From positions 342,001 to 406,000 of the forward strand of contig CP018227.1 in NCBI GenBank assembly GCA_016865035.1: 64,000 nt of DNA. Direction: 5' to 3'. The position numbers and the translations under genes were made by a program. The notes under the pieces were generated by a model. It did no database searches. It had not been told where the DNA came from and worked only from the letters and a program-made list of their open reading frames with translations. Of the stretch, positions 17,363 through 29,777 are shown piece by piece. The stretch's first letter is position 1, and each line of letters opens with the position of its first letter. This DNA is from Kordiimonadales bacterium IMCC3096 (GTDB lineage: Bacteria; Pseudomonadota; Alphaproteobacteria; Minwuiales; Minwuiaceae).

Positions 17363-18247
17363 ATGAACAACTATCCCGTCAGCATGGATACCAGGCCGGA
17401 CGTCAAGGCCTTCTTCGACGAGGACACCAATACGTTCAGCTATGTGGTGAGCGATCCGGAAACCGCTGCCTGCGCCGTCATCGACTGTGTCCTCAACCTG
17501 GACTACGCCGCCGGGCGCATCAGTCATGAAGGCGCCGATGCGATCATCGACGACATCCGGGCGCGCGGGCTGAAGCTGGAATGGATCATCGAGACCCATG
17601 TCCATGCGGATCACCTGAGCGCCGCCCCCTACATCCAGGGAGCGCTGGGCGGGCTGATCGGCATCGGCGACAGGATCAGCGATGTGCAGACCACGTTCGG
17701 GGCGTTCTTCCACGAAGGCGACAGCTTTCCGTGCGACGGATCCCAGTTCGACCGCCTGTTCGCCGATGGCGACACCTACATGATCGGCAGCATGCAGGCC
17801 TTCGCCATCCATACGCCGGGTCACACGCCGGCCTGCATGGTGCATGTGATCGGCGATGCCGCCTTCGTCGGCGACACGCTGTTCATGCCTGATGGCGGCT
17901 CGGCCCGCGCCGACTTCCCCGGCGGCGATGCCGGAACGCTGTACGACAGCATCCAGAAGCTGCTGTCCCTGCCGGATGCGATGCGGCTGTTCATGTGCCA
18001 CGACTACGGCCCGGGCGGGCGCGAGATCGCCTTCGAGACCACGGTCGGTGACGAGAAGCGCGCCAACATCCATGTCGGCGGTGGCAGGTCACGGGCGGAG
18101 TTCGTCGCCTTCCGCAGCGAACGCGACCCCCAGCTCGGCATGCCGCGCCTGATCATCCCTTCCCTGCAGGTGAACATGCGCGGTGGCCATATCCCGACGG
18201 ATGACGACGGCAACATGGTGCTGACCGTGCCGATCAACGGCCTCTGA
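17363..18247 (+). CDS. MBL-fold persulfide dioxygenase (Blh/ETHE1-like)
   Basis: 294 residues; GGAGGAG upstream. The metallo-beta-lactamase core shows E-T-H-V-H-A-D-H (metal motif, residues 77-84), H-T-P-G-H-T-P-A-C and F-V-G-D-T-L-F-M-P-D. The length and the C-terminal H-V-G-G-G-R-S-R and N-M-R-G-G-H-I-P match the Blh persulfide dioxygenases. These mononuclear Fe enzymes oxidise glutathione persulfide to sulfite with O2. It lies between the DUF2892 gene and the SQR fusion, whose persulfide product is its expected substrate. Confidence 0.9.
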   Translation: MNNYPVSMDTRPDVKAFFDEDTNTFSYVVSDPETAACAVIDCVLNLDYAAGRISHEGADAIIDDIRARGLKLEWIIETHVHADHLSAAPYIQGALGGLIGIGDRISDVQTTFGAFFHEGDSFPCDGSQFDRLFADGDTYMIGSMQAFAIHTPGHTPACMVHVIGDAAFVGDTLFMPDGGSARADFPGGDAGTLYDSIQKLLSLPDAMRLFMCHDYGPGGREIAFETTVGDEKRANIHVGGGRSRAEFVAFRSERDPQLGMPRLIIPSLQVNMRGGHIPTDDDGNMVLTVPINGL

Positions 18248-18265
18248 GACTGAAGGACCAACAGC

Positions 18266-19945
18266 ATGGACATCAAGCACATCACGGATGGCCTGTCGGT
18301 CAGTCCGCAGATCTCGGCTGACGACATTCCGGCCATCGCCGGCGCCGGTTTCCGCACCATCATCTGCAATCGCCCTGACGGTGAAGGGGCCGACCAGCCA
18401 ACCCACGAGGAGATCGCGGCAGCCGCAAGTGCCAGCGGGCTGGAGATGCACTACCTGCCCGTGGTTCCAGGCGTGGTCTCCGATGAGGATGTGTCCGGCT
18501 TCGGCGATGCACTGCGCGACATGCCCGGCCCGGTCCTGGCCTATTGCCGGACCGGCACCCGCTCCGCAACGCTCTGGTCCCTGAGCGAGGCCGGCAAGCG
18601 CCCCATGGCCAGCATCCTGGCCGCCACCAAGGCCGCCGGGTATGACATGAACGGTGTCGTTCGCCGGATTGCCAACGGTGGCCGGACGCCTACCGACCAG
18701 GGCGATGCATCATTCGATCTGGTCATCGTCGGGGCCGGTGCGGGGGGCATCGCGGTGGCAGCCAGCATCCGGGCCAGGATGCCGTCGCTGGAGGTCGCGA
18801 TCATCGATCCGGCGGATGTGCACTACTACCAGCCCGGCTGGACGATGGTCGGCGGCGGCATCTTCTCCGCCAGCGACACGGCGCGCACCATGGGCAGTCT
18901 GATCCCGCGCGGCGTCCATTGGATCAAGAGCGCCGTCGCCGCGTTCGAACCGCAGAACAATGCCGTCATCCTGGACGGCTGCCGGGTCGTGAAGTACAAC
19001 CGGCTGATCGTCTGCCCGGGCCTGAAACTCGACTGGGAAAAGGTGGAAGGCCTGTCGGAGACGCTGGGCCGGAATGGCGTTACCTCCAACTACCGCTACG
19101 ATCTGGCGCCCTATACCTGGGAACTGGTGCAGGGACTGAAGGCGGGCCGGGCGATATTCACCCAGCCCCCCATGCCGATCAAATGCGCCGGGGCACCGCA
19201 GAAGGCACTCTATCTGTCCGCCGATGCTTGGCGGCGCAACGGGGTGCTGGGTGCCATCGAAATCCGGTTCAACAATGCCGGTGGTGTCCTGTTCGGTGTG
19301 AAGGACTATGTGCCCGCGCTGGAATCCTACATGGATCGCTATGGCGTCACCCGGAACTTCTTCCACAATCTCGTTGCCGTTGACGGTCCGGCGCGCAAGG
19401 CGACCTTCGAGGTTCGGGAGCCGGATGCCGAGCCCCGGCTGATCGAGACCGAATTCGACATGCTGCATGTCTGTCCGCCCCAGACAGCGCCTGACTTCAT
19501 CCGTGTCTCCCCGCTGGCCGACAGCGCCGGCTGGATCGATGTCGACCAGGCAACCCTGCGCCACAGGACCCATGACAACATCTGGTCCCTCGGCGACGTG
19601 ATGAACGCCCCGAATGCGAAGACCGCCGCGGCGGCCCGCAAGCAGGCACCCGTCGTGGCGGAAAACATCGTTGCCGACATCTCCGGGCACTCTCCCGTTG
19701 CCCAGTATGACGGCTACGGCTCATGCCCCCTGACGGTCGAGCGCGGCAAGATCGTGCTGGCCGAGTTCGGCTATGGCGGCACCTTGCTGCCAAGCTTTCC
19801 GAAGGCTCTGATCGATGGAACCCGGCCCAGCCGTCTGGCATGGCTGCTGAAGGAACGCATCTTGCCGCCGATCTACTGGAAGGCGATGCTGCGGGGTCGC
19901 GAATGGCTGGCAAGGCCGGAAAAGCTGACCGCTCACAGCGACTGA
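18266..19945 (+). CDS. DUF442 phosphatase/sulfurtransferase-like domain fused to sulfide:quinone oxidoreductase
   Basis: 559 residues. N-terminal DUF442/TIGR01244 domain (about 1-138) with the catalytic loop Y-C-R-T-G-T-R-S (Cys94), probably handling persulfide. The C-terminal SQR (about 150-559) has the FAD motif V-I-V-G-A-G-A-G-G, Y-Y-Q-P-G-W-T-M-V-G and M-P-I-K-C-A-G-A-P-Q-K, whose Cys307 matches a redox cysteine of SQOR-type enzymes. At the position of the second SQOR cysteine (G-D-C in human SQOR) it has Val445; Cys403 in H-V-C-P-P is nearby in sequence and might substitute. The fusion architecture itself is known. It oxidises sulfide and reduces quinone at the membrane. Confidence 0.9.
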   Translation: MDIKHITDGLSVSPQISADDIPAIAGAGFRTIICNRPDGEGADQPTHEEIAAAASASGLEMHYLPVVPGVVSDEDVSGFGDALRDMPGPVLAYCRTGTRSATLWSLSEAGKRPMASILAATKAAGYDMNGVVRRIANGGRTPTDQGDASFDLVIVGAGAGGIAVAASIRARMPSLEVAIIDPADVHYYQPGWTMVGGGIFSASDTARTMGSLIPRGVHWIKSAVAAFEPQNNAVILDGCRVVKYNRLIVCPGLKLDWEKVEGLSETLGRNGVTSNYRYDLAPYTWELVQGLKAGRAIFTQPPMPIKCAGAPQKALYLSADAWRRNGVLGAIEIRFNNAGGVLFGVKDYVPALESYMDRYGVTRNFFHNLVAVDGPARKATFEVREPDAEPRLIETEFDMLHVCPPQTAPDFIRVSPLADSAGWIDVDQATLRHRTHDNIWSLGDVMNAPNAKTAAAARKQAPVVAENIVADISGHSPVAQYDGYGSCPLTVERGKIVLAEFGYGGTLLPSFPKALIDGTRPSRLAWLLKERILPPIYWKAMLRGREWLARPEKLTAHSD

Positions 19946-20027
19946 CCGGACCTGAACCCGGACCGCTGCGGGGTCATCCGCAACGGCTGACCGCCGCACC
20001 TGCCACCCAACTGCGGGACAACTGACC

Positions 20028-21740
20028 ATGAAGCCATCCATCGCGCGCTACCTGCCGGTCCTGGACTGGGGGCGCACCTATTCGCGCGAGACGCTGGTCA
20101 ACGATCTGGTCGCCGCAGTCATCGTCACGATCATGCTGATCCCGCAGTCGCTGGCCTATGCACTGCTGGCCGGGCTGCCGCCGGAGGCGGGCATCTATGC
20201 CTCCATCGCGCCAATCGTTCTCTATGCGTTGTTCGGCACCAGCCGGGTTCTGGCGGTCGGACCCGTGGCCGTGGTCTCCCTGATGACAGCCACGGCCATC
20301 AGTCAGGTAGCGGATCAGGGCTCTGCGGGATATCTGGCCGCCGCCCTTCTCCTGGCCGCACTCTCCGGCGGCATCCTGCTGATCATGGGCGTGTTCCGGC
20401 TCGGCTTCCTGGCGAACTTTCTCTCACATCCCGTGATCGCCGGCTTCATCACGGCCAGTGGCATCCTGATCGCCGCAAGCCAGCTCGGTCATGTGCTCGG
20501 GATCAATGCCCGTGGCCACACCCTGATCGAGATCGTGCAGTCACTTGTCACCAACCTGAACCAGATCAATCCCGTCACCGTGCTGATCGGTGTCGCCGCG
20601 ACCGGGTTCCTGTTCTGGGTCAGGAAACACCTGAAACGCTCCCTGCTGGCACTCGGTCTCGGGGCGATGCCCGCCGACATCCTGACCAAGGCGGGTCCGG
20701 TTGCGGCTGTCGCCGTCACGACCCTGCTTGTATGGGGCCTCGGTCTCGACTCGGAAGGCGTGAAGATCGTGGGTGCCGTGCCTCAGAGCCTGCCCCCCCT
20801 CACCATGCCGCCCATGGATGTGGAACTGATCCGGCTGCTGCTCGTGCCCGCGCTGCTGATCTCCGTCATCGGGTTCGTGGAATCCGTATCCGTCGCCCAG
20901 ACACTCGCCGCGCGCAAGCGGCAGCGCATCGATCCGAACCAGGAACTGATTGGCCTGGGGGCCGCGAATCTGGGGGCAGCCTTCACGGGCGGTTATCCTG
21001 TGACAGGCGGTTTTGCGCGTTCCGTCGTGAATGCGGATGCGGGTGCGGCAACCCCGGCCGCCGGAGCCTTCACCGCTGTCGGTCTGGCCTTTGCCGCGAT
21101 AGCCCTCACGCCCCTGGTCCATTTCCTGCCGAAGGCCACCCTGGCGGCGACGATCATCGTGGCGGTCCTCAGCCTGGTCGACCTGAGCATCCTGCAGAAG
21201 ACCTGGCGCTATTCGCGGGCGGACTTCAGCGCCGTGCTGGCGACAATCGTCCTGACACTGACGCTGGGCGTGGAGGTCGGCGTATCGACCGGCGTGATCC
21301 TCTCGCTGGCGCTGCACCTCTACAAGAGTTCCCGGCCGCATGTCGCCGAGGTCGGACTGGTGCCCGGCAGCCAGCACTTCCGGAACATCCTGCGCCACAA
21401 GGTCGAGACCGATCCATCGGTGGTCAGCCTTCGGGTCGATGAAAGCCTGTTCTTCGTGAACGCGCGCTTCCTGGAGGATCTGGTGCTCAACCGACTGTCC
21501 GGGAACAAGGATATCCGGCACGTTGTGCTGATGTGCTCGGCGATCAACGAGATCGACTATTCGGCGCTGGAGAGCCTGGAGACGATAAACCAGCGGCTGG
21601 AAAGCATCGACGTCAGGCTGCATCTGTCAGAGGTCAAGGGACCGGTGATGGACCGGCTGCAGACCACCCATTTCCTCGACAGGCTCAGTGGCCAGGTCTT
21701 CCTGTCCCAGTATGACGCCTGGCGCACGCTGAAACCCTGA
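20028..21740 (+). CDS. SulP family sulfate/anion transporter with STAS domain
   Basis: 570 residues. SulP signature I-P-Q-S-L-A-Y-A-L-L-A-G-L-P-P-E-A-G-I-Y-A-S near residue 40, about twelve membrane helices, and a C-terminal STAS domain (about 440-560) with V-V-L-M-C-S-A-I-N-E-I-D-Y-S-A-L-E-S-L. It is the last gene of the sulfide operon, 82 bases after the SQR fusion. In this context it most likely moves sulfate or sulfite, perhaps exporting the end product. Longer than the first SulP protein in the window and only distantly similar to it. Ends 36 bases before a convergent gene; no terminator is obvious there. Confidence 0.9.
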   Translation: MKPSIARYLPVLDWGRTYSRETLVNDLVAAVIVTIMLIPQSLAYALLAGLPPEAGIYASIAPIVLYALFGTSRVLAVGPVAVVSLMTATAISQVADQGSAGYLAAALLLAALSGGILLIMGVFRLGFLANFLSHPVIAGFITASGILIAASQLGHVLGINARGHTLIEIVQSLVTNLNQINPVTVLIGVAATGFLFWVRKHLKRSLLALGLGAMPADILTKAGPVAAVAVTTLLVWGLGLDSEGVKIVGAVPQSLPPLTMPPMDVELIRLLLVPALLISVIGFVESVSVAQTLAARKRQRIDPNQELIGLGAANLGAAFTGGYPVTGGFARSVVNADAGAATPAAGAFTAVGLAFAAIALTPLVHFLPKATLAATIIVAVLSLVDLSILQKTWRYSRADFSAVLATIVLTLTLGVEVGVSTGVILSLALHLYKSSRPHVAEVGLVPGSQHFRNILRHKVETDPSVVSLRVDESLFFVNARFLEDLVLNRLSGNKDIRHVVLMCSAINEIDYSALESLETINQRLESIDVRLHLSEVKGPVMDRLQTTHFLDRLSGQVFLSQYDAWRTLKP

Positions 21741-21776: not shown

Positions 21777-22247
21777 CTATTCCTCGACAGTGAAGTTGAA
21801 GCGGCGTTCGCCCCTGCGGTCCCAGCTGTCATTCACGCGGATCAGGATCTCGTGCTCCCCCGCCGGCAGGTCGGCGTTGCTGGCCATGATCTCGCCGTCC
21901 TTCACCTCGGCACGTTCGAGAATCCGGTCCGTGATGTCGAATGAGAAGATGGAACCGACGTAGCGGATTTCCAGGCTCGACATGTCGAGTGAAGCGCCAA
22001 GGCCGGGGCGCATCCGGACGTGAATGTCCACCGGGGCCTTGAAATGGGTCGTTGCGTTGGGCTGCACCAGTTCGATGACAGGCGCATCCGCGACAACGGC
22101 ACGCGGCGCGGCCTCCAGCGTCGAGCCGGGCAGCGAGCCGTCACGGATCGCCAGAATCTCGCTGCGGCTGATCAGTTCGAAGGCGTTGGCCGAGAAAGCT
22201 ACGGACAGGGCCAGAACGGCGCCTGCAATCGCGGAAATCGGTCTCAT
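21777..22247 (-). CDS. Small secreted protein of unknown function (Ig-like beta-sandwich)
   Basis: 156 residues with a signal peptide (about 1-22, cleavage after A-N-A). The mature part is rich in beta-strand pattern, with A-P-V-I-E-L-V-Q-P and a final H-E-I-L-I-R-V-N-D-S-W-D-R-R-G-E-R-R-F-N-F-T-V, reminiscent of periplasmic Ig-like domains. No Cys in the mature protein. It lies 33 bases downstream of the lipoprotein gene on the same strand and is probably co-transcribed with it, which links it to the divergent protease operon. I recognise no family. Confidence 0.7.
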   Translation of the reverse strand: MRPISAIAGAVLALSVAFSANAFELISRSEILAIRDGSLPGSTLEAAPRAVVADAPVIELVQPNATTHFKAPVDIHVRMRPGLGASLDMSSLEIRYVGSIFSFDITDRILERAEVKDGEIMASNADLPAGEHEILIRVNDSWDRRGERRFNFTVEE

Positions 22248-22280: not shown

Positions 22281-23198
22281 TCAGCCTCCGGCAGGGGCAT
22301 GGCGAAATGACAGCTCGGTCTGCAATGGCCGGCGCAGGCGCCGCTCTGCGACCAGGTCGTCCAGCCGTGCGGAGGTGAAATGATTCTTGCCCTTGTCGGC
22401 GATGAACATGTCCCTGGGCGCAGGCAGCCCGGTGCGCGCGGCAAGCTGCACATCACGGCAGGCAGGCAGGCTGGACCGCACATCCGCTGCGACATCCAGA
22501 TTGTCACTGTCAGCGGTCGCCGGATCAGCACAGGGCATGAAGCTGAAGATTACCTGATCGGTGCCTGGCGCGCCCGAGAACTCGAACGGCCCGATATCGT
22601 GCACCTGTCCTGCGGCAGCGGGCCAGTCGCCGATCGGCACCAGCCTGCCGTCCGGTGTCCGGTTCGACAGGCGGTGAATGCCCGGCAGGTTGGCCGTGGT
22701 TCGCAGGACAATCCGGTCCTGGCCGGTGAATGTGGTCTCGTCGGGGGAGACCTGACGCAGGCTTTCGCCACCATCGTCAAGATAGGTCGCCACAACCAGG
22801 GTGGCTGACACAGGTTCCGGCTCGGGCGCCGAGGCCAGTGTCCCGCTATCGGATTGCGCAGGAACGCAATCCATCGTCGCGTTGATCGCCGCAGGCGATC
22901 CCGCACCTGAATCACTCGTCACACTGTCGACCCCGGCCGCGGCAACTTCCGCACCGGTATCGAGGGTGCCGACCAGCAGATCAAAGATCTTCTCCGCCGC
23001 AAACCCGAGTATCGGCGCAGCCAGCGAGGAGAGAAAGCGCGACTCGATCTCATCCGGCTGCACAACCGCGGCGCGCGGACACGGCGTGACACCGGCCGCA
23101 GAAGCGGTCTGCACCGGACCCGGTTCAGCCTGATCCCCCTGGCAGGCGCCCAAGCCGATCATGGCCAGTGCAAGCACTGAAACACTCAAAGGTTTCAT
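22281..23198 (-). CDS. Lipoprotein of unknown function, divergent to the protease operon
   Basis: 305 residues with a lipoprotein signal: lipobox L-G-A-C at residues 16-19, so Cys19 is lipidated and the +2 residue is Gln, favouring the outer membrane. Ser/Pro/Ala-rich stretches follow. The region around residues 145-230 (G-Q-D-R-I-V-L-R-T-T-A-N-L-P-G then D-G-R-L-V-P-I-G and A-G-Q-V) resembles the DUF4384 sandwich at the end of the trypsin-caspase protein, but weakly. Several Cys (40, 122, about 240 and 263) could form disulfides. The longer open frame upstream overlaps the divergent gene and is not used. Function unknown. Confidence 0.7.
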   Translation of the reverse strand: MKPLSVSVLALAMIGLGACQGDQAEPGPVQTASAAGVTPCPRAAVVQPDEIESRFLSSLAAPILGFAAEKIFDLLVGTLDTGAEVAAAGVDSVTSDSGAGSPAAINATMDCVPAQSDSGTLASAPEPEPVSATLVVATYLDDGGESLRQVSPDETTFTGQDRIVLRTTANLPGIHRLSNRTPDGRLVPIGDWPAAAGQVHDIGPFEFSGAPGTDQVIFSFMPCADPATADSDNLDVAADVRSSLPACRDVQLAARTGLPAPRDMFIADKGKNHFTSARLDDLVAERRLRRPLQTELSFRHAPAGG

Positions 23199-23375: not shown

Positions 23376-24344
23376 ATGAGAGCCAGTCGCCATGCCTTCG
23401 GAACCTGCCTGTCCGCACTCGTCGCGGTGCCGGTTCTGCTCGCAGTCGGAACCTCGGCGGCACAGGCCGACGATTGCCCCGACGCCGATGCCGCCACGCA
23501 GGCCTTCACGCGGGGTGACCTGCAATCCCTGAGACAGATGTCCAGAACAGCAACCGTTGCCCCCTGCCCGCCGGGATTCCGGAACTGGATCCGGGTGGCT
23601 GTGGCACGGGTCGCGACCGCAGGAATTGCCGGCAACCCGCCTGCCGACATTCACAAGGCCGCGGCACCACCCGAACTGGCGGCGCTGCAGCTCGACGTGC
23701 CGCAGCCCCTGGTGCTGGAGGCGCTGGGCGACGGCTACCGTGCGGCAGGCCATTACGCGGCGGCGGCCATGGCCTACCAGCGCGCGATGACATTGCTCGC
23801 GGACACCGGCCAGAGCTGGCAGGACTTTGATCCGGGCCCCGGCTTCGTGCGCATGATCCATCAGAAGATGGAGGAAGCGCGCCTGCTCTCCCCCACCCAT
23901 GTCCCCGTCGACCTCGACCCCGCCACGCAGCGAAAGGGCGGGTATGCGCTCGGCTCCGTGCGCGGATTCAATCCGACCGTCCGGCGGGAGCCGATCGCGT
24001 TCGAAACCGACTCGACGGAACTGACGGATGATGGGGAGAAGACCGTCTCGCAACTGGTCGAGCGGCTGCTGAACGAGAATCCGGATATCGTCACGGTCGT
24101 CGGACACGCCGACGAGCGCGGCGAAGAGGGCTACAACGAGGCCCTTTCGGAGCGCAGGGCCGCGGCAATCGCGGAGAAGATCAGGGAGGCCGGATTTTCC
24201 GGCAATGTCACGGCGATCGGACGCGGCGAGAGCCAGCCCTTCCCGATTGACGGCCGGAATGCCCTGCCGCTGGAGGATCAGTGGCGGCTTGATCGACGGG
24301 TGGAGATATGCGTCGGCTTGGCCACGGCCACATGCGGCGGCTGA
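23376..24344 (+). CDS. Exported OmpA-domain protein, first gene of protease/serpin operon
   Basis: 322 residues. Signal peptide about 1-32 (cleavage near A-Q-A-D). The middle (about 110-145) has a TPR-like helical pair, G-D-G-Y-R-A-A-G-H-Y-A-A-A-A-M-A-Y-Q-R-A. The C-terminal 110 residues are an OmpA-like peptidoglycan-binding domain: I-A-F-E-T-D-S-T-E-L-T, V-V-G-H-A-D-E-R-G and L-S-E-R-R-A-A-A-I, with the Asp and Arg that hold diaminopimelate in the family. It should anchor to the cell wall in the periplasm. The next gene begins 37 bases before its stop, so the two are coupled. The ATG at this position places the signal peptide at the N terminus; the ribosome site (CTGGA) is weak. Confidence 0.82.
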   Translation: MRASRHAFGTCLSALVAVPVLLAVGTSAAQADDCPDADAATQAFTRGDLQSLRQMSRTATVAPCPPGFRNWIRVAVARVATAGIAGNPPADIHKAAAPPELAALQLDVPQPLVLEALGDGYRAAGHYAAAAMAYQRAMTLLADTGQSWQDFDPGPGFVRMIHQKMEEARLLSPTHVPVDLDPATQRKGGYALGSVRGFNPTVRREPIAFETDSTELTDDGEKTVSQLVERLLNENPDIVTVVGHADERGEEGYNEALSERRAAAIAEKIREAGFSGNVTAIGRGESQPFPIDGRNALPLEDQWRLDRRVEICVGLATATCGG

Positions 24345-25825
24345 TACTCGTACCCGTTACCCTGCTGGCCTTGCTGATTTCCGCCCCGGGCCAGGCTGAA
24401 CTGCGCGCGCTTGTGGTGGCGGTCGAACTGGACGCGCCGGGCGCGGAACGCGATGCCGCCGAACTCGCAGACGCACTGCGGCATGTACACGGCAGCGACA
24501 TCACGGTCCTGACCGGCCCTGACGCAAGACCAGGTCCCGTGCGCCGGGAACTTGCAATGCTGCAGTCCCGTGCCGCAGCGGGCGACCTGATCTTCTTTTC
24601 CTATGCAGGGGCGGGCGGCCAGCAGCCGGAACAGGCGCTGGGCAGCGAGCCCGACCAGTTGGACGAGGTCCTGCGGATGGGCGATGGCGACCTCACCACC
24701 GGGATCCGGGACGGAGAGCTTGCACTGTGGGCCTCCGACATTGCGGCAAGGGGCGCCCTCGCCATGCTGTTGCTCGACACGGGCTATGTCGATGCGCCCC
24801 GCCGACCGGCGAGCAGTCCAGGCAGCGCGCCGCAAGCGAGAGGACTTCCGGTGCAGGCGGTACGCCGGTGGCCCGAGTCATCCGCCGGATTTGCAGCACT
24901 CGCGGAAGTCTATCGGGCCTCGTCACTGTCGGGACTGGAGCAGATGCCGCCGCGCACCATGGTCCTGCAGGCGACCGCGGAACCGGATCACGCGGCACCG
25001 ACGTTCGAGCTGACGGATGGCACCCACAGTGCGACCACAACGACGCGCGGCGCACTCAGCCATGCCTTCGCCCAGGCAATCCGGGGCGCGGCGGATCGCG
25101 ATGGCAACGCACGCATTACCGCCGGCGAACTGGACCGCCACATCCGCGCGACAATGCGCCAGGTCACGGATGGCGCGGCGCGGCCAGGCATTCACTATCG
25201 CTTCGCACCGAAATCGACCCTCTTCTTCAGCCGGGGCAGCGCAGGCGGAGACCACGTCGCACTCCCGATCCCGCTGAACCGGACGATCTCGATCGAGCCG
25301 ACGCGGCGGCATGCCTTCTCCGCAAGAGGTGATCTGGTTGCAGAACAGGCGACGGTCGGCATGGCCGGACAGATCACGCAGAGCCGACTGGCCATTGACC
25401 GGCTGCATCTGCTGGCCCGACACAGTCCCCTGGATGCCCGGACGGTGCCGGATCACGGTCTGTGGTCCTTTGGACAGCGCTTTTCGATCCGGATCGGAGA
25501 CGCGGAACTGCCCCACCGTCTCATCGCCAACATCACCGGACACGGGACGGTGCAGATGCTTTATCCGGAAGCGCGTGGTCAGTCCGACCGGCCGGGGGGA
25601 TTGCTGGATGACCTCGCGATCCTGGGACCATTCGGAACCGACAGCGTGGTGATCATCGCGACAGCGGAACCGGCGCAGGACCTGTATCAGACCTTCAGGG
25701 ACTGGGACGGGCGGCCCTTTGACCCAGACATGGCGACCCGTGTCAGCGCACTGCTGGAGCGGCGCGACTTCCGGGTGGCCGTCCTGCCAATCGTCTCTGC
25801 CGCCGGTGGGGGAGCAAGCCAATGA
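24308..25825 (+). CDS. Exported caspase-fold (C14-like) protein lacking catalytic His and Cys
   Basis: 505 residues; signal peptide about 1-30 (ATG at 24332 is an alternative start). Residues ~32-270 follow the caspase p20 order seen in the next gene: A-L-V-V-A-V-E near the first strand, D-L-I-F-F-S-Y-A-G-A-G-G where active enzymes have Y-F-A-G-H-G, and L-L-L-D-T-G-Y-V-D where they have F-D-S-C-F-S-G. So the catalytic His is Ala102 and the Cys is Gly159. An EF-hand-like loop D-R-D-G-N-A-R-I-T-A-G-E-L (263-275) follows, then a region resembling DUF4384 (about 360-460, F-S-I-R-I-G-D). Predicted to be an inactive partner or regulator of the active protein encoded next, which overlaps it by four bases. 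Confidence 0.75.
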   Translation: MRRLGHGHMRRLILVPVTLLALLISAPGQAELRALVVAVELDAPGAERDAAELADALRHVHGSDITVLTGPDARPGPVRRELAMLQSRAAAGDLIFFSYAGAGGQQPEQALGSEPDQLDEVLRMGDGDLTTGIRDGELALWASDIAARGALAMLLLDTGYVDAPRRPASSPGSAPQARGLPVQAVRRWPESSAGFAALAEVYRASSLSGLEQMPPRTMVLQATAEPDHAAPTFELTDGTHSATTTTRGALSHAFAQAIRGAADRDGNARITAGELDRHIRATMRQVTDGAARPGIHYRFAPKSTLFFSRGSAGGDHVALPIPLNRTISIEPTRRHAFSARGDLVAEQATVGMAGQITQSRLAIDRLHLLARHSPLDARTVPDHGLWSFGQRFSIRIGDAELPHRLIANITGHGTVQMLYPEARGQSDRPGGLLDDLAILGPFGTDSVVIIATAEPAQDLYQTFRDWDGRPFDPDMATRVSALLERRDFRVAVLPIVSAAGGGASQ

Positions 25826-28515
25826 ACCGACCGAAGACAGCCTTGCCGCCACGAAGGACCCTGGGCCTCGGCCTTGTTCTCGGCTTTCTTGCCATGCTGC
25901 TGTCGCCGCATGTCACCGCCGAAGAGCCCCCCAAACCGGTTGCCCGCATCATCGGCGGCCACGAGGTCCAGTCGGGCGCACGTCCCTGGCAGGTGTTGCT
26001 GAACATCAACCGCGCCGGCCTCCGCTATACCTGCGGTGCCACCATCATCTCGGCCGACTGGATCCTGACTGCCGCCCATTGCACCCATGCCGTCGCCGAC
26101 AGGCCGAACAGCATCCGTGTCCTCGCCGGCACAACGCAGCTGGAGGAGGGACACGGCGTCATCGTCGGCGTCAGGGAGATACACGTTCACCCGGACTACG
26201 ACGGATCAGCCATCAATCACCCGAACGACGTATCCCTGCTCCGGCTGGCGGAGCCGCTGCCGTTCGTGCCGGTGCGCCTGATGGCACCTGCGGACGAAGA
26301 GGTGCTGGGCGTACAGGACACGCCGGGCCTCGTGATCGGATTCGGCGCCGTGGAGGAAGGCGGCGGCGCATCGGGCCGACTGCTGGAAACCAGCGTGCCA
26401 CTGCAGGGCTACGACAAGTGCAAGCAGGTCTACGGCACCTATCTCCAGCCCGGCATGATCTGCGCCGGACTGGACGAAGGCGGGCGCGATACCTGCCAGG
26501 GCGACAGCGGCGGGCCGTTGCTGGTGCGGGACGGGAACGGTGATTTCGTGCAGTTGGGCATCGTCAGCTGGGGCGCGGGCTGCGCCGTTGCCGGACGCTA
26601 TGGCGTCTATACCCGGATCACCAGCTACCTCGACTGGATTGCGGAACGAACGCGCCTCAGCATCGCGACCCTCACCGGTTTCGAGAATGATCCCCAGATG
26701 GTGGCCGCGGCAGCGCCGCCCGTCCTCGAGTCGGCGCTGGTCTCTTCCGATTCAGTCGTTGTGCTGCCTCAGGCTGCTGCCCAGGCGCCGACCGGCGCTG
26801 GTGACACGCCTGACAGCCCGGCCACGGCTCCTACCGGCAGCGCCATGAACATCGGCACGATCCTGGCGCCGGTTTCCCCGCGCCTGCCACCGCCGAATCT
26901 GGCCACCCTCGACATTCCCCAGCGCCCGGCAGGCAATCGCGCCCTGCTGATCGGCATCGACGACTACTGGGATGACGACTTCGACCTGACCGGCAGCGTC
27001 GCCGATGTGGAGCGCATCCGTGCCCTGCTGCTGGCCGATGGCAGCTTCACGGAGGACCAGATCATGGTCCTGACCGATTCCCAGGCGACACGGGCCAACA
27101 TTCATCTGGCTTTCGAGCAGTGGCTGACGGCCCAGACCCGGCCCGATGACCTGGCACTGCTCTATTTCGCCGGACACGGCTTTCACCAGCAGGACCTGAA
27201 CGGCGACGAGGCCGACGCGATCGATGAAGCCATTGTGCCCTACGATGCCAACCGCTTTCGGGCCCGTGACCTGATCCGCCCCGCTGTCATGCGCGTCATC
27301 GTGGACGACGACATCGGCGTCCTGCTGCGTGCGATCGCGGACAGGCGGGTGACGGCGATCTTCGATTCCTGTTTCTCGGGCTCCGTCACCCGGAATCTCG
27401 CCGCGAACGTGCCCGACACGGCCAATGCGCGTTCCCTGGATTTCCGGCTGGGCGGCACCTTCAAGCCGCTGCCGCGCAGTTCCATGCGTACCCGGACCAA
27501 TGCCAACGACCTGATCGATCTGCGCAACGACAATCTGGTTGTCTGGACAGCGGTCTCCGAGCGGGAGCTCGCCCTGGTCGACCGCAGCGCCTCGCCGCCG
27601 GGCGGTGTCTTCACCTCAGCCTTTGTCGAGGGGTTGCGGAACAGGGCGGCTGACGCGGACGGGGACGGGATTGTCTCGCACGCCGAGCTGCTGGATCACC
27701 TGAGGCAGCGCGCGGGCAGCTATTGCAAGCAGAATCCCGGATCATGCGGAATCGGGCTGACCCCCACGCTGGAGGCGGCATCGGAGGCATACCTTACCGA
27801 CGTCATCTCCAGACGCCCGGTCCACCGTGCCATCCTGGAATCGGCCACCGGCACACCATCAGCACCGGTCGGCCAGACGGAACCGGCGCCGGTCGCGTTG
27901 GCCGCCACGGCAGACGCATCGGCACCGCAGCAGGTTGCGGCAGCCGCGGTGCCACCGCCGTCGGCCAGACCTGAACCGAACCCTTCCGTCCGTCCGCCAC
28001 GTCCGGAGGGTGCGCCGGAGGAGACCGTCGTCGATGGCCCGAAGAAGCCGCGGAAGAGTGTCGTCCATCTGGAAGTGACGCCGACCAGCACCGTGAAGGT
28101 TGGCGACCGGATTCGACTGTCGGTGACCGCCCGGCGGGAGGGGCGCCTGTTCGTGATCGACGTCCGCTCCGATGGTCAGATGGTGCAGATCTTCCCGAAC
28201 AGGCTGGCTGTTGCCGCCGGACAGACATCGCGCATCGACGCGGGCGAGACGATGACGTTCCCGAAGCTCGCTGACGGCTATGACTTCGTGGCGGGTCCGC
28301 CGCTGGGTCAGGGTCGACTGGTGGCCATCCTCGCCGATCCGGAATCGGAAGTGGCGAAGGTGCTGGACCGCCATAGCGACCTGGAGACCATCAAGGACCT
28401 GCGCGCCTATCTCTCCGACGTTGCCGCGGGTCTGCGTCAGCCGCAACGGGACGGCTTTGCCATGCGTCTGCCCGACTGGACGATGCATGCGGTTGAATAT
28501 GAGATTGTCCAATGA
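25822..28515 (+). CDS. Exported trypsin-like (S1) / caspase-like (C14) fusion protease with DUF4384 domain
   Basis: 897 residues. Signal peptide about 1-33. Trypsin domain 43-277: activation site Arg42-Ile43 (R-I-I-G-G), catalytic His86 (T-A-A-H-C), Asp136 (N-D-V-S-L-L), Ser229 (G-D-S-G-G-P), Asp223 at the S1 position giving Arg/Lys preference, and the three conserved disulfide pairs (71/87, 200/214, 225/254). A Pro/Ala linker leads to a caspase p20-like domain (about 372-665) with His452 (Y-F-A-G-H-G) and Cys517 (D-S-C-F-S-G) intact, and an EF-hand-like loop at 611-623. A second Pro-rich linker precedes a DUF4384 domain (about 745-845). Both proteases look active. Starts ATGA-coupled to the previous gene and ends ATGA-coupled to the serpin. 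Confidence 0.9.
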   Translation: MNRPKTALPPRRTLGLGLVLGFLAMLLSPHVTAEEPPKPVARIIGGHEVQSGARPWQVLLNINRAGLRYTCGATIISADWILTAAHCTHAVADRPNSIRVLAGTTQLEEGHGVIVGVREIHVHPDYDGSAINHPNDVSLLRLAEPLPFVPVRLMAPADEEVLGVQDTPGLVIGFGAVEEGGGASGRLLETSVPLQGYDKCKQVYGTYLQPGMICAGLDEGGRDTCQGDSGGPLLVRDGNGDFVQLGIVSWGAGCAVAGRYGVYTRITSYLDWIAERTRLSIATLTGFENDPQMVAAAAPPVLESALVSSDSVVVLPQAAAQAPTGAGDTPDSPATAPTGSAMNIGTILAPVSPRLPPPNLATLDIPQRPAGNRALLIGIDDYWDDDFDLTGSVADVERIRALLLADGSFTEDQIMVLTDSQATRANIHLAFEQWLTAQTRPDDLALLYFAGHGFHQQDLNGDEADAIDEAIVPYDANRFRARDLIRPAVMRVIVDDDIGVLLRAIADRRVTAIFDSCFSGSVTRNLAANVPDTANARSLDFRLGGTFKPLPRSSMRTRTNANDLIDLRNDNLVVWTAVSERELALVDRSASPPGGVFTSAFVEGLRNRAADADGDGIVSHAELLDHLRQRAGSYCKQNPGSCGIGLTPTLEAASEAYLTDVISRRPVHRAILESATGTPSAPVGQTEPAPVALAATADASAPQQVAAAAVPPPSARPEPNPSVRPPRPEGAPEETVVDGPKKPRKSVVHLEVTPTSTVKVGDRIRLSVTARREGRLFVIDVRSDGQMVQIFPNRLAVAAGQTSRIDAGETMTFPKLADGYDFVAGPPLGQGRLVAILADPESEVAKVLDRHSDLETIKDLRAYLSDVAAGLRQPQRDGFAMRLPDWTMHAVEYEIVQ

Positions 28516-29777
28516 CCAGGGAACGGGGCGGCAACATGCGCAAGGTTCGGAGGCTCCTTCTCGGACTGGCAACCGCCGGGGTACTTGGCGGCCTGGCGGC
28601 CACCGTCCCCGCAGCGGCCGACAGCAGCTCCGGACAGCTCGACGCCCTGGATCCGGCGCGCCGCGTCGCGGTGGGGCTGGAGCGGCTCGGCTTCTGTCTG
28701 GCCAGCGCAGCACTGCAGACCGCTCCGGACCGGAACGTGCTGATCGCCCCGACCGGAGCGGGCCGGATACTGGCCATGATCGGTGCGGGCAGTCCCCTGC
28801 CCGTCCGCCAGAAGATTGCGGCATTGCTGGCCTGGCCGGAATTCCTGGGCGGGTCGCTGGCATTCGGCGTCAGCCTGGACCGGGCGCGGCTATCTGCGGA
28901 CGCCTCTCCCGATGTGACCCTGCGACTGGCGACCGGAATCTGGCACGACAGGAACCACGAACCCCGCACCTACTTCGCCCTGCATGCCGGGGCCGGCCTG
29001 CAGGCCATGGACCCTGCCGACCCGGCCACCACCGACCGGATCAACGCATGGATCAGTGACCGGACGGACGGCATGATCGCGGAGGCCATCACCGACATCC
29101 CCGCCGAAACGACCATTCTGATGGCCGATGTACTTGCCTTCAGCGGTGCCTGGAGCACGCCCTTCGACCCGGAGGAAACGCGCCGCGCCGCCTTCGCATC
29201 GGGAACACCCCTGGCCACGGAAGTGGCGATGATGCAGTCGCGCCGGCAGGTCCTGCCGCATCGCCGTGACGCCCATGGTGACTGGCTGACCCTGCCCTAT
29301 GGCGACGGGCGCTTCGAGGCGGTGCTGGTGCAGCCGACGGCGTTCGAACTCGGCAGCTTCGGCAGGATGGCCTGCGAGACCGTTGGCGGCCTGACCGTCC
29401 CTGTGGCCGCAACCGACTCCCATTCGCTCACACTGCGACTGCCCCGCATGAAACTGGACGCAACGGCCAGTCTGGATCAGTTGCTTCATCAGGCGCGGCT
29501 GGGCGACGTGCTCGACGATCCCCTGCTGGGTTCATCCATGCTGACACCGGCAACGCGTCCCGGCCCGATACGCCAGCAGGTCGCGCTGACCGTCGACGAG
29601 AAGGGATCGAAAGTGGCGGCAGCGACGATCGCCATCGGCACCCGTGCCGGTGCAGAGCCGGTGGAACTGAACTTCGACCGGCCCTTCGTGCTGATGATCC
29701 GGGAACAGACGACCGGGCTGCCCCTGCTGATCGGCATGATCAACCGGCCGGGCGACGCGTCGGGCACCGACGAATAG
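28512..29777 (+). CDS. Exported serpin (serine protease inhibitor)
   Basis: 421 residues; basic n-region and signal peptide to about residue 36 (ATG at 28536 is an alternative). Serpin fold marks: L-F-A-P-like L-I-A-P-T-G at 77-82, the hinge D-E-K-G-S-K-V-A-A-A-T (362-372), and the C-terminal L-N-F-D-R-P-F-V-L-M-I-R and G-L-P-L-L-I-G-M-I-N-R-P. Counting from hinge Glu363 as P17 puts Arg378 at P2 or, allowing one residue, P1, fitting a trypsin-like target. The small P9-P12 residues indicate an inhibitory serpin. The gene overlaps the trypsin-caspase stop by four bases, so its likely target is that trypsin domain. Serpins are uncommon in Proteobacteria. Confidence 0.85.
   Translation: MTRERGGNMRKVRRLLLGLATAGVLGGLAATVPAAADSSSGQLDALDPARRVAVGLERLGFCLASAALQTAPDRNVLIAPTGAGRILAMIGAGSPLPVRQKIAALLAWPEFLGGSLAFGVSLDRARLSADASPDVTLRLATGIWHDRNHEPRTYFALHAGAGLQAMDPADPATTDRINAWISDRTDGMIAEAITDIPAETTILMADVLAFSGAWSTPFDPEETRRAAFASGTPLATEVAMMQSRRQVLPHRRDAHGDWLTLPYGDGRFEAVLVQPTAFELGSFGRMACETVGGLTVPVAATDSHSLTLRLPRMKLDATASLDQLLHQARLGDVLDDPLLGSSMLTPATRPGPIRQQVALTVDEKGSKVAAATIAIGTRAGAEPVELNFDRPFVLMIREQTTGLPLLIGMINRPGDASGTDE

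Follow-up and report, generated by a model that had tools for sequence, protein, structure and literature searches.

An alphaproteobacterial operon for an OmpA protein, two caspase homologues, a fused trypsin and a serpin: a candidate guarded protease of the envelope

Described guarded proteases and pseudo-caspases

In the clotting, complement and Toll cascades of animals, trypsin-family zymogens that are activated after arginine are held by serpins with arginine at P1. Bacterial proteases can also adjoin their inhibitors, as in the staphopain–staphostatin and SpeB–Spi pairs, where the inhibitors are small and cytoplasmic; the native targets of bacterial serpins are, to our knowledge, mostly unclear. 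The available text on chloropin describes a bacterial inhibitory serpin with arginine at P1 but no co-encoded protease target (PMC10090351). A trypsin/QC-pseudo-orthocaspase/DUF4384 protein of Rhizobiales was reported in 2019, in a paper whose accessible portion also relates that the Trypanosoma brucei pseudo-metacaspase TbMC4 works with TbMC3, and cFLIP with caspase-8; the words serpin and operon are absent from that portion, and the neighbouring caspase gene is not paired there (PMC6426788). That protein narrows the claim of the sequence-only reading that no system with these parts had been described; our literature search found no paper on the serpin operon or on the caspase swap reported below.

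The gene set analysed here resembles a miniature, bacterial form of the animal guarded cascades. As judged from sequence, it shares with them a trypsin-family zymogen probably activated after arginine and a serpin with a likely arginine P1 (plasma kallikrein/factor XI and PAI-1 are the closest solved structures), whereas the bacterial envelope, the single operon and the fusion to a caspase fold set it apart. As in the staphopain and SpeB pairs, the protease adjoins the inhibitor, but here the inhibitor is a putative suicide-type serpin that is probably exported. This serpin is of predicted inhibitory type, like chloropin and miropin (the latter among its PDB matches), and has the likely P1 arginine in common with chloropin, from which it differs in its co-encoded protease. 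A dead caspase homologue lies beside a live one, as with cFLIP/caspase-8 and TbMC4/TbMC3; unlike in those pairs, the dead member differs by lineage.

The co-encoding of the OmpA protein, two caspase homologues, fused trypsin and serpin, under purifying selection, is read directly from the genomes; that the serpin inhibits the protease, and what the protease's target and trigger would be, we infer. We think it somewhat more probable than otherwise that the operon encodes an Arg-protease zymogen module of the envelope, in which one caspase is live, the other is regulatory and the operon's own serpin restrains the protease. More tentatively, and with less than even confidence, we suggest an extracytoplasmic protease cascade under a cognate serpin with a two-gene caspase, either member of which can be the active one and the other a substrate-binding regulator. 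If true, this cascade would be the first self-contained bacterial zymogen–pseudoenzyme–serpin circuit known to us, and one already present in model Rhizobium strains.

The Minwuia locus

The window is a stretch of 64,000 nucleotides from a Minwuia (Alphaproteobacteria) chromosome, and the four-gene row occupies positions 23376-29777 of its + strand. The proposed order of OmpA, dead caspase, trypsin-caspase (here with DUF4384) and serpin is borne out by Pfam matches for the OmpA, trypsin-caspase and serpin genes and by the caspase-like second gene. Two further genes lie on the − strand. The first encodes a 156-aa protein (21777..22247), probably secreted by the signal-peptide rule and earlier described as Ig-like; it has no Pfam family above the cut-off, adjoins the cluster in the four Minwuia genomes that have the cluster, and shows dN/dS of 0.05-0.12. 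The second encodes a 305-aa lipoprotein-like protein (22281..23198) with a lipobox-like sequence (...IGLGA/C) and no known domain in the Pfam scan; relatedness to DUF4384 found no support, with hhalign probabilities of just 0.8% and 5% in two comparisons. The module is patchy in Minwuia (four of seven genomes), and the same six-gene order is found in three Minwuia genomes besides the window's, which is more than chance. Pairwise dN/dS for the locus genes, between the window and its two closest Minwuia relatives, is 0.05-0.24.

The two 4-base overlaps claimed earlier are genuine and kept in all four Minwuia genomes: that between the second gene and the trypsin-caspase gene is ATGA in all four, and at that between the trypsin-caspase and serpin genes three genomes have ATGA and the fourth GTGA. 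A 37-base overlap between the first two genes was also claimed, but it needs an ATG at 24308, which is CTG in all three Minwuia relatives; the conserved start at 24332 leaves a 13-base overlap. The N-termini of all four products are signal-peptide-like, as had been proposed, by a simple hydropathy and −1/−3 rule that is crude enough for the membrane transporter SulP also to pass, and which the two other neighbours scored, the ECH gene and the 18266-19945 gene, fail. The cluster proteins are thus probably exported.

The OmpA-domain protein (23376..24344, +; PF00691, 9.7e-14) has a signal-like N-terminus and weak TPR matches below the Pfam cut-off. The motif GHAD...N..LS..R, which we take to be the OmpA peptidoglycan-binding motif, is kept in Minwuia, one MAG, R. 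etli and R. lusitanum, and its conserved Asp and Arg predict peptidoglycan binding. In the module we favour, this protein (in Minwuia perhaps also the lipoprotein) would anchor the complex at the cell wall, and anchoring would allow release solely on envelope disturbance; envelope remodelling and lysis are candidate outcomes.

The trypsin-caspase protein and its caspase partner

The third gene (25822..28515, +) encodes an 897-aa protein with matches to PF00089 (8.5e-55), PF00656 (5.9e-18) and PF14326 (5.1e-16). The sequence-only reading was right that it has an intact trypsin and an intact caspase domain, and missed its C-terminal DUF4384 domain (28093..28335). In the trypsin domain (25948..26640; Pfam and residue alignment), the triad H86/D136/S229 and the specificity residue D223, presumably the Asp at the base of the S1 pocket in trypsin numbering, are invariant in 10 of 10 homologues. 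The domain would be made as a zymogen activated by a cut after arginine, the likely site being R42/I43 (PVAR/IIGG, 25945..25950): the arginine of this predicted cleavage site is conserved in 12/12 homologues (R/IIGG, R/IVGG, R/VIGG or R/VVGG) and in 30/30 Rhizobium-genus loci. The cut might be made in the periplasm by the live orthocaspase or by the trypsin itself. The orthocaspase domain (26938..27741; Pfam and alignment) retains H452 and C517, an HC and not a QC dyad as expected of an orthocaspase, together with acidic-pocket residues D395 and D515.

The second gene (24332..25825, +; start placed by conservation) encodes a stand-alone caspase homologue that is dead in the window, as had been claimed: A94 (codon 24611..24613, GHG to GAG) and G151 (24782..24784, DSC to DTG) replace the catalytic His and Cys in the caspase alignment, while pocket residue D149 is retained. 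The window protein has no Pfam match; its R. etli orthologue scores above the Pfam caspase cut-off, and the family profile matches metacaspase sequences (3.9e-14 for a Geobacter protein, 4.8e-14 for a metacaspase-1). A structure model of modest confidence (pLDDT 61; a second model reached 58) has PDB matches to MALT1 (6.8e-10) and metacaspases (1e-7), at whole-chain TM-scores of only about 0.3, so that a caspase fold lacking the His-Cys dyad is the assignment these matches support. On weak evidence, its C-terminus may carry a diverged DUF4384: the MAG orthologue scores 0.022 in Pfam, below the cut-off, and a score of 8.8e-6 came from a model whose seed sequences included a relative of the protein itself. 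Dead as it is, the gene is under purifying selection (dN/dS 0.14-0.16). In a tree, the two caspase groups fall on opposite sides of one branch (support 96/93), and the Minwuia stand-alone protein joins the others of its kind at 87/60 only, on a long branch.

Gene 2 is not, as the term pseudo-caspase had implied, the dead member by fixed role. Minwuia has a dead stand-alone caspase and an intact fused one. Rhizobium has the reverse, an intact stand-alone caspase and a fused one in which Gln replaces His. Both are intact in the MAG, and in Siculibacillus the fused protein has an intact trypsin and has lost both caspase residues. The Rhizobium fusions fit the published QC type as described in the accessible text (SGQG and DACHVG, with trypsin His and Ser motifs, in all 30 loci read, out of 37 genomes), from which the Minwuia and MAG proteins differ in their intact His-Cys dyad (PMC6426788). 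DUF4384 is present in 6/6 Rhizobium fusions scanned with a custom model, and by Pfam in R. etli. Both acidic-pocket Asp residues are kept in 23/23 caspase domains, stand-alone and fused, in agreement with alignment to metacaspases (the count drops a Siculibacillus row that resembles the stand-alone protein and has no caspase part). Since the loss can fall on either member, we regard the two caspases as one functional pair; a two-gene caspase with its dead member as regulator would make the dead partner part of the machine. Keeping its Arg-binding pocket, the dead caspase may regulate the live one, in the manner of cFLIP with caspase-8. The swap, a natural experiment, suggests that the unit is the pair and not the single gene, and could account in part for the retention of pseudo-orthocaspases.

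The serpin, its linkage and its possible targets

The 421-aa serpin (28512..29777, +; PF00079, 7.2e-49, profile positions 4-370 of 370) has a signal-like N-terminus, and its closest solved structure is PAI-1 (4dte, 5.5e-27), presumably a trypsin-type inhibitor. Inhibitory serpin hinges are defined by Gly at P15 and small residues at P12-P9; the window's hinge (DEKGSKVAAAT) and those of its homologues have these residues, which predicts inhibition. By loop alignment, the hinge and reactive loop (G365...GTR/A) span 29604..29660, and R378 (29643-29645), aligned with the Arg of PAI-1, is the likely P1. A loop Arg is present in 11 of 11 operon serpins. It also occurs near the same position in three of five operon-unlinked alphaproteobacterial serpins (G190, G098 and G028), both from G256 being without it, and therefore Arg alone is no proof of protease pairing. 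Arginine is nonetheless what the pocket of the trypsin, the zymogen site and the loop of the serpin all indicate, and the earlier idea of a guarded enzyme fits the predicted Arg-type pocket, the Arg activation site and the conserved loop Arg. The serpin would act as a suicide trap that clears stray active protease and sets a threshold.

The earlier reading would have failed had the genes been scattered elsewhere; instead, Rhizobium shows the four-gene order again (R. etli CFN42 and R. johnstonii 3841 among others), with a plasmid location in that genus, and one MAG of another family has OmpA, trypsin-caspase and serpin together, with the stand-alone caspase ~5 kb off and divergent. Among 120 genomes of the genus Rhizobium, 37 have a full trypsin-caspase, and in all 37, which are related and hence not independent, the serpin lies directly downstream on the same contig and strand, with 107-177 bp between the matched regions. 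Among 385 genomes of the class, four have a full trypsin-caspase and all four have a serpin. The linkage comes from three lineages only: Minwuia, the one MAG and Rhizobium. One serpin is thus tied to a single protease gene in these genomes, and since genetically tractable strains such as R. etli CFN42 and R. johnstonii 3841 are among the carriers, the serpin target question is directly testable there, in what would be a simple bacterial system for a serpin threshold and for control of a caspase by a pseudo-protease.

The same data bear on what the serpin inhibits. That it defends the cell against foreign proteases of predatory bacteria, hosts or neighbours, the operon being merely shared, strikes us as quite improbable. 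Rhizobium is a root-nodule plant symbiont, and variation would be expected of a reactive loop engaged in an arms race, but P2-P1-P1′ is invariant (E-R-S) in 32 of 32 Rhizobium rows, so the loop is not hypervariable, G-T-R-A is found in 4/4 Minwuia serpins, and the serpin is linked to one protease gene in every one of the 37 genomes. Mean entropy in Rhizobium is 0.21 bits for the loop and 0.36 for the body; because 61% of body positions, taken singly, fall below the loop mean, the loop is ordinary, not specially conserved. Protection from environmental proteases is, in the accessible text, one of the functions suggested for bacterial serpins (PMC10090351).

It is also unlikely, in our view, that the serpin traps the live orthocaspase across classes, as CrmA does caspase-1, with the trypsin as downstream effector. 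The caspase pocket appears to be Arg-type, all 11 operon serpins co-occur with at least one caspase having both residues, and no serpin match turned up in the genome of Siculibacillus, which has lost the fused caspase residues and kept the trypsin. Siculibacillus is one case, however, with a separate caspase-domain gene adjoining the fusion gene; in Rhizobium the serpin adjoins a gene for a caspase without His and a trypsin with intact motifs; and the likeness to PAI-1 suggests a trypsin-type target.

In 6/6 Rhizobium examined, a Ser/Thr kinase gene follows the serpin gene, and in the module we favour this kinase may relay the release to the cytoplasm. Less probable is that the module serves as an envelope sensor upstream of a kinase or a secretion machine, with proteolysis processing a signal and not serving killing or remodelling; this reading is similar in weight to a caspase target, and both overlap with our main reading, so the likelihoods we attach do not sum to one. 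In Siculibacillus the protein has type VI secretion genes and a kinase as neighbours, and DUF4384 commonly accompanies kinases according to the accessible text (PMC6426788), but the type VI link was seen once, and the Rhizobium kinase has no match in the window or in the stretches of Minwuia, the MAG and Siculibacillus that were searched.

An anti-phage or abortive-infection system with a caspase effector seems very improbable. The PADLOC caspase model matches the window protein (1e-19), the R. etli kinase matches several defence-kinase models (among them MkoA 7.7e-18, PD-T4-6 2e-13), the R. etli trypsin-caspase weakly matches LmuA (6.6e-6), and patchy distribution and plasmid location would suit defence. 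Against this, the PADLOC kinase and caspase models are general, a ZorB match of OmpA (6.9e-7) covers the OmpA/MotB-like C-terminal domain, the dead caspase, serpin and two divergent proteins have no PADLOC match, and apparent export by the simple rule would place the window proteins away from phage DNA and replication.

No serpin match was found in the genomes of four Rhodobacterales with separate adjoining caspase and trypsin genes, or in those of Siculibacillus (fused trypsin-caspase) and Bradyrhizobium lablabi (trypsin-DUF4384); such proteases can therefore do without a serpin. In G294, a single OmpA-caspase-DUF4384 protein joins the parts.

Layout and conservation of the cluster in Minwuia

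We consider it very likely that the genes described here constitute a conserved, probably exported protease–serpin module. In the window, which comes from a Minwuia chromosome, its four genes lie on the forward strand: OmpA (23376-24344; above the Pfam cut-off), a stand-alone caspase homologue that we call psc (24332-25825; no Pfam match), the trypsin–caspase–DUF4384 protein TC (25822-28515; Trypsin, Peptidase_C14 and DUF4384 all above their Pfam cut-offs), and the serpin (28512-29777; Serpin above the Pfam cut-off). On the reverse strand are a lipoprotein (22281-23198; no Pfam match), for which profile comparison gave no support as a DUF4384 protein, and a small secreted-like protein (21777-22247). 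The order of these six genes is identical in the three other TC-positive Minwuia genomes, whose proteins are 85-94%, 76-89% and 50-72% identical to those of the window. The two 4-base overlaps that the sequence-only reading had pointed out, psc/TC and TC/serpin, are kept in 4/4 Minwuia genomes (the latter as GTGA in one), but the 37-base overlap it placed between OmpA and psc is rejected: the codon at 24308, from which psc would have started, is CTG in three relatives, and the start ATG at 24332 is kept in 4/4. TC and the serpin are both present in four of seven Minwuia-genus genomes and both absent in three, one of which is only 89% complete.

Each of the six proteins encoded by the window's cluster does have a signal-like N-terminus, as had been claimed for the four operon products, although the simple rule used also passes the membrane transporter SulP. 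OmpA keeps its peptidoglycan motif, and the trypsin domain has six cysteines at the positions expected of three disulphides, into which these cysteines pair in trypsin domains. The SulP gene is part of a separate row (window 17363-21740) that also includes a gene we take to be metallo-hydrolase-like, which comes first, and a BLH-phosphatase/flavoprotein fusion; we presume this to be a sulfide-handling cluster.

Linkage of TC and serpin outside the genus

The four-gene order, whose conservation across genera the earlier reading had left to be searched for, was found in at least four Rhizobium species among public genomes (the best 80 of 545 relatives); the original observation is real, and larger than first stated. 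In these species, the OmpA protein has an added N-terminal DUF4384 domain (by Pfam in R. etli, by our own model in the others), and in R. etli and R. johnstonii the TC/serpin junction is a short gap with no overlap. Copies of the operon reside on plasmids p42e of R. etli CFN42 and pRL11 of R. johnstonii 3841, with a Ser/Thr kinase gene next to them; in R. etli CFN42, psc is RS24690, TC is RHE_RS24695 and the serpin is RS24700. Of 160 plasmid records with a match, 88 span 80% or more of TC. In a sample of 120 Rhizobium-genus genomes, serpins and TC matches were each found in 38; 37 had full TC, and in 37/37 the serpin follows TC on the same strand after 107-177 bp, although these genomes are relatives rather than 37 independent events. 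The exceptions are a lone serpin (G512) and a TC match with trypsin only (G496).

Overall, the module is rare yet strongly linked. Among 385 genomes of the class, 12 matched the TC profile at 1e-20, but full-length TC was present in only four (three Minwuia and G294, a MAG from another family), the rest matching partly; a serpin was found in eight, namely all four with full TC and four without. In the MAG, the run consists of a DUF4384 protein, OmpA, TC, the serpin and a second DUF4384 protein, the last three junctions being 4-base overlaps, and psc is divergently oriented about 5 kb away. Among 398 genomes of the phylum, 19 matched the TC profile, with full TC in Minwuia and G553 (apparently a Rhizobium) only and the trypsin part alone in the others. 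The MAG serpin (L047:10521-11756, +) starts like a lipoprotein, with a lipobox-like LAGAC, and may be membrane anchored. On contig 75 of the same MAG, a single OmpA–caspase–DUF4384 protein (L053:2738-4825, −), a natural fusion of operon parts, is encoded beside two DUF4384 proteins.

We found no paper describing the operon in a full-text search of the open-licence literature. A 2019 survey of pseudo-orthocaspases (PMC6426788) had already reported a Rhizobiales QC protein with an N-terminal trypsin and a C-terminal DUF4384 domain, and the words "serpin" and "operon" are absent from its text; "trypsin" and "serpin" are likewise absent from PMC5756287. A bacterial serpin with Arg at P1 has been described (PMC10090351), with no co-encoded target named in the portion of that text consulted.

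Catalytic residues of the two caspases

Which of the two caspases has lost its catalytic residues differs by lineage. In aligned caspase domains from 4/4 Minwuia genomes, the catalytic His and Cys are replaced by Ala and Gly in psc and retained in TC; in 6/6 Rhizobium, psc carries both residues, and in TC a Gln takes the place of the His beside an intact Cys; and in the MAG both caspases are intact. The proposal that gene 2 encodes a dead caspase therefore stands for Minwuia but not for Rhizobium or the MAG. The Rhizobium pattern was uniform in the 30 loci read among the 37 Rhizobium-genus genomes: TC had SGQG/DACHVG, and psc AGHG/ADTCHAGG, in 30/30. The Siculibacillus TC has Gln and Thr at the catalytic positions; its short psc-like neighbor, having no caspase part, was excluded from the counts. 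A tree built from 42 caspase domains separates psc from TC across a branch supported at 96/93 (a test in which 19 other caspases were not counted), and the Minwuia psc, on a long branch, unites with the other psc only at 87/60. The likeliest reading is that the psc and TC caspases are a pair of ancient paralogues whose catalytic activity was lost in separate lineages.

The dead copy is maintained in Minwuia, because its pairwise dN/dS among the window and its two closest relatives is 0.14-0.16 (TC, 0.11-0.12; serpin, 0.16-0.24). In 23/23 caspase domains of psc and TC, whether catalytically dead or not, both of the pocket aspartates to which basic residues bind in metacaspases are conserved; they were mapped by alignment to metacaspase-1 and GSU0716 and from the pocket residues named in PMC6426788. 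Given these aspartates and a predicted psc model of modest quality that matches MALT1 and metacaspases (pLDDT 61, whole-chain TM ~0.3), the dead partner may still be able to bind Arg peptides. An EF-hand-like calcium loop, DADGDGIVSHAEL, lies where the caspase part ends (TC residues 611-623, window 27652-27690; psc residues 255-267). The pattern occurs in all 11 psc that include a caspase part, as well as in all five Minwuia/MAG TC, but its absence from 6/6 Rhizobium TC, whose caspase is dead, and from Siculibacillus led us to reject it as a general calcium switch.

Serpin target and neighboring systems

The trypsin triad and specificity Asp are invariant in 10/10 TC, and 12/12 homologues have Arg at the activation site. 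Among solved structures, the trypsin domain is closest to chains of plasma kallikrein and factor XI, and the serpin is closest to PAI-1, in which the loop Arg aligns with R378, the likely P1 residue of the window serpin. Arg occupies this position in 11/11 operon serpins, and P2-P1-P1′ is E-R-S in 32/32 Rhizobium rows (31 loci plus two plasmid copies minus the lone G512 serpin, with R. johnstonii 3841 probably counted twice); the G512 serpin has no Arg at P1. By the canonical count from the hinge, the Arg comes one residue early in Minwuia and Rhizobium serpins, a placement of P1 also known from alpha-2-antiplasmin and CrmA. As proof of pairing the loop Arg is weakened, since three of five unlinked alphaproteobacterial serpins (from four genomes) also have it. 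Nor is the Rhizobium loop hypervariable or specially conserved: its mean entropy (0.21 bits) is below that of the body (0.36 bits), but 61% of individual body positions fall lower than the mean of the loop.

No serpin match was found in six genomes that have related proteases arranged differently (Siculibacillus, Bradyrhizobium lablabi and four Rhodobacterales), so a serpin is not required wherever such proteases occur; among the loci examined, it accompanies the OmpA/TC/serpin form. Siculibacillus, where the fused caspase is without both catalytic residues and there is no serpin, hints that the serpin may watch a live orthocaspase rather than the trypsin. Overall, we think it probable that the serpin's natural target is a protease of its own operon, and we lean slightly towards the full mechanism as proposed.

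Several other layouts were seen. In the four Rhodobacterales loci (L109, L118, L136 and L140, ~9.7-13.1 kb), caspase and trypsin are encoded separately, with the trypsin gene immediately after the caspase gene; B. lablabi (L117:9785-14521) has consecutive genes for trypsin–DUF4384, DUF4384, OmpA and a weakly caspase-like product; and G190 has two tandem trypsin–DUF4384 genes without a caspase by our own models (L224:7012-10040), with a serpin elsewhere whose loop Arg is present.

The fit to a phage-defence family was not convincing. In a Siculibacillus MAG (L067:3-14864), the dead-caspase TC adjoins type VI secretion genes (DotU-OmpA, IcmF, TagF) and a Ser/Thr kinase, but we discarded a type VI link as a single case; no type VI gene is annotated in the stretches that flank the operon of R. 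etli CFN42, R. etli Mim1 or R. johnstonii 3841. A Ser/Thr kinase was likewise dropped as a core member, there being no match near the Minwuia or MAG copies. The kinase that follows the serpin on R. etli p42e (L161:12785-15187, +) has one membrane-spanning stretch, judged by eye, and a weak, below-cut-off C-terminal match to a sulfatase-modifying factor (0.0017); it is a possible envelope-to-cytoplasm reporter.
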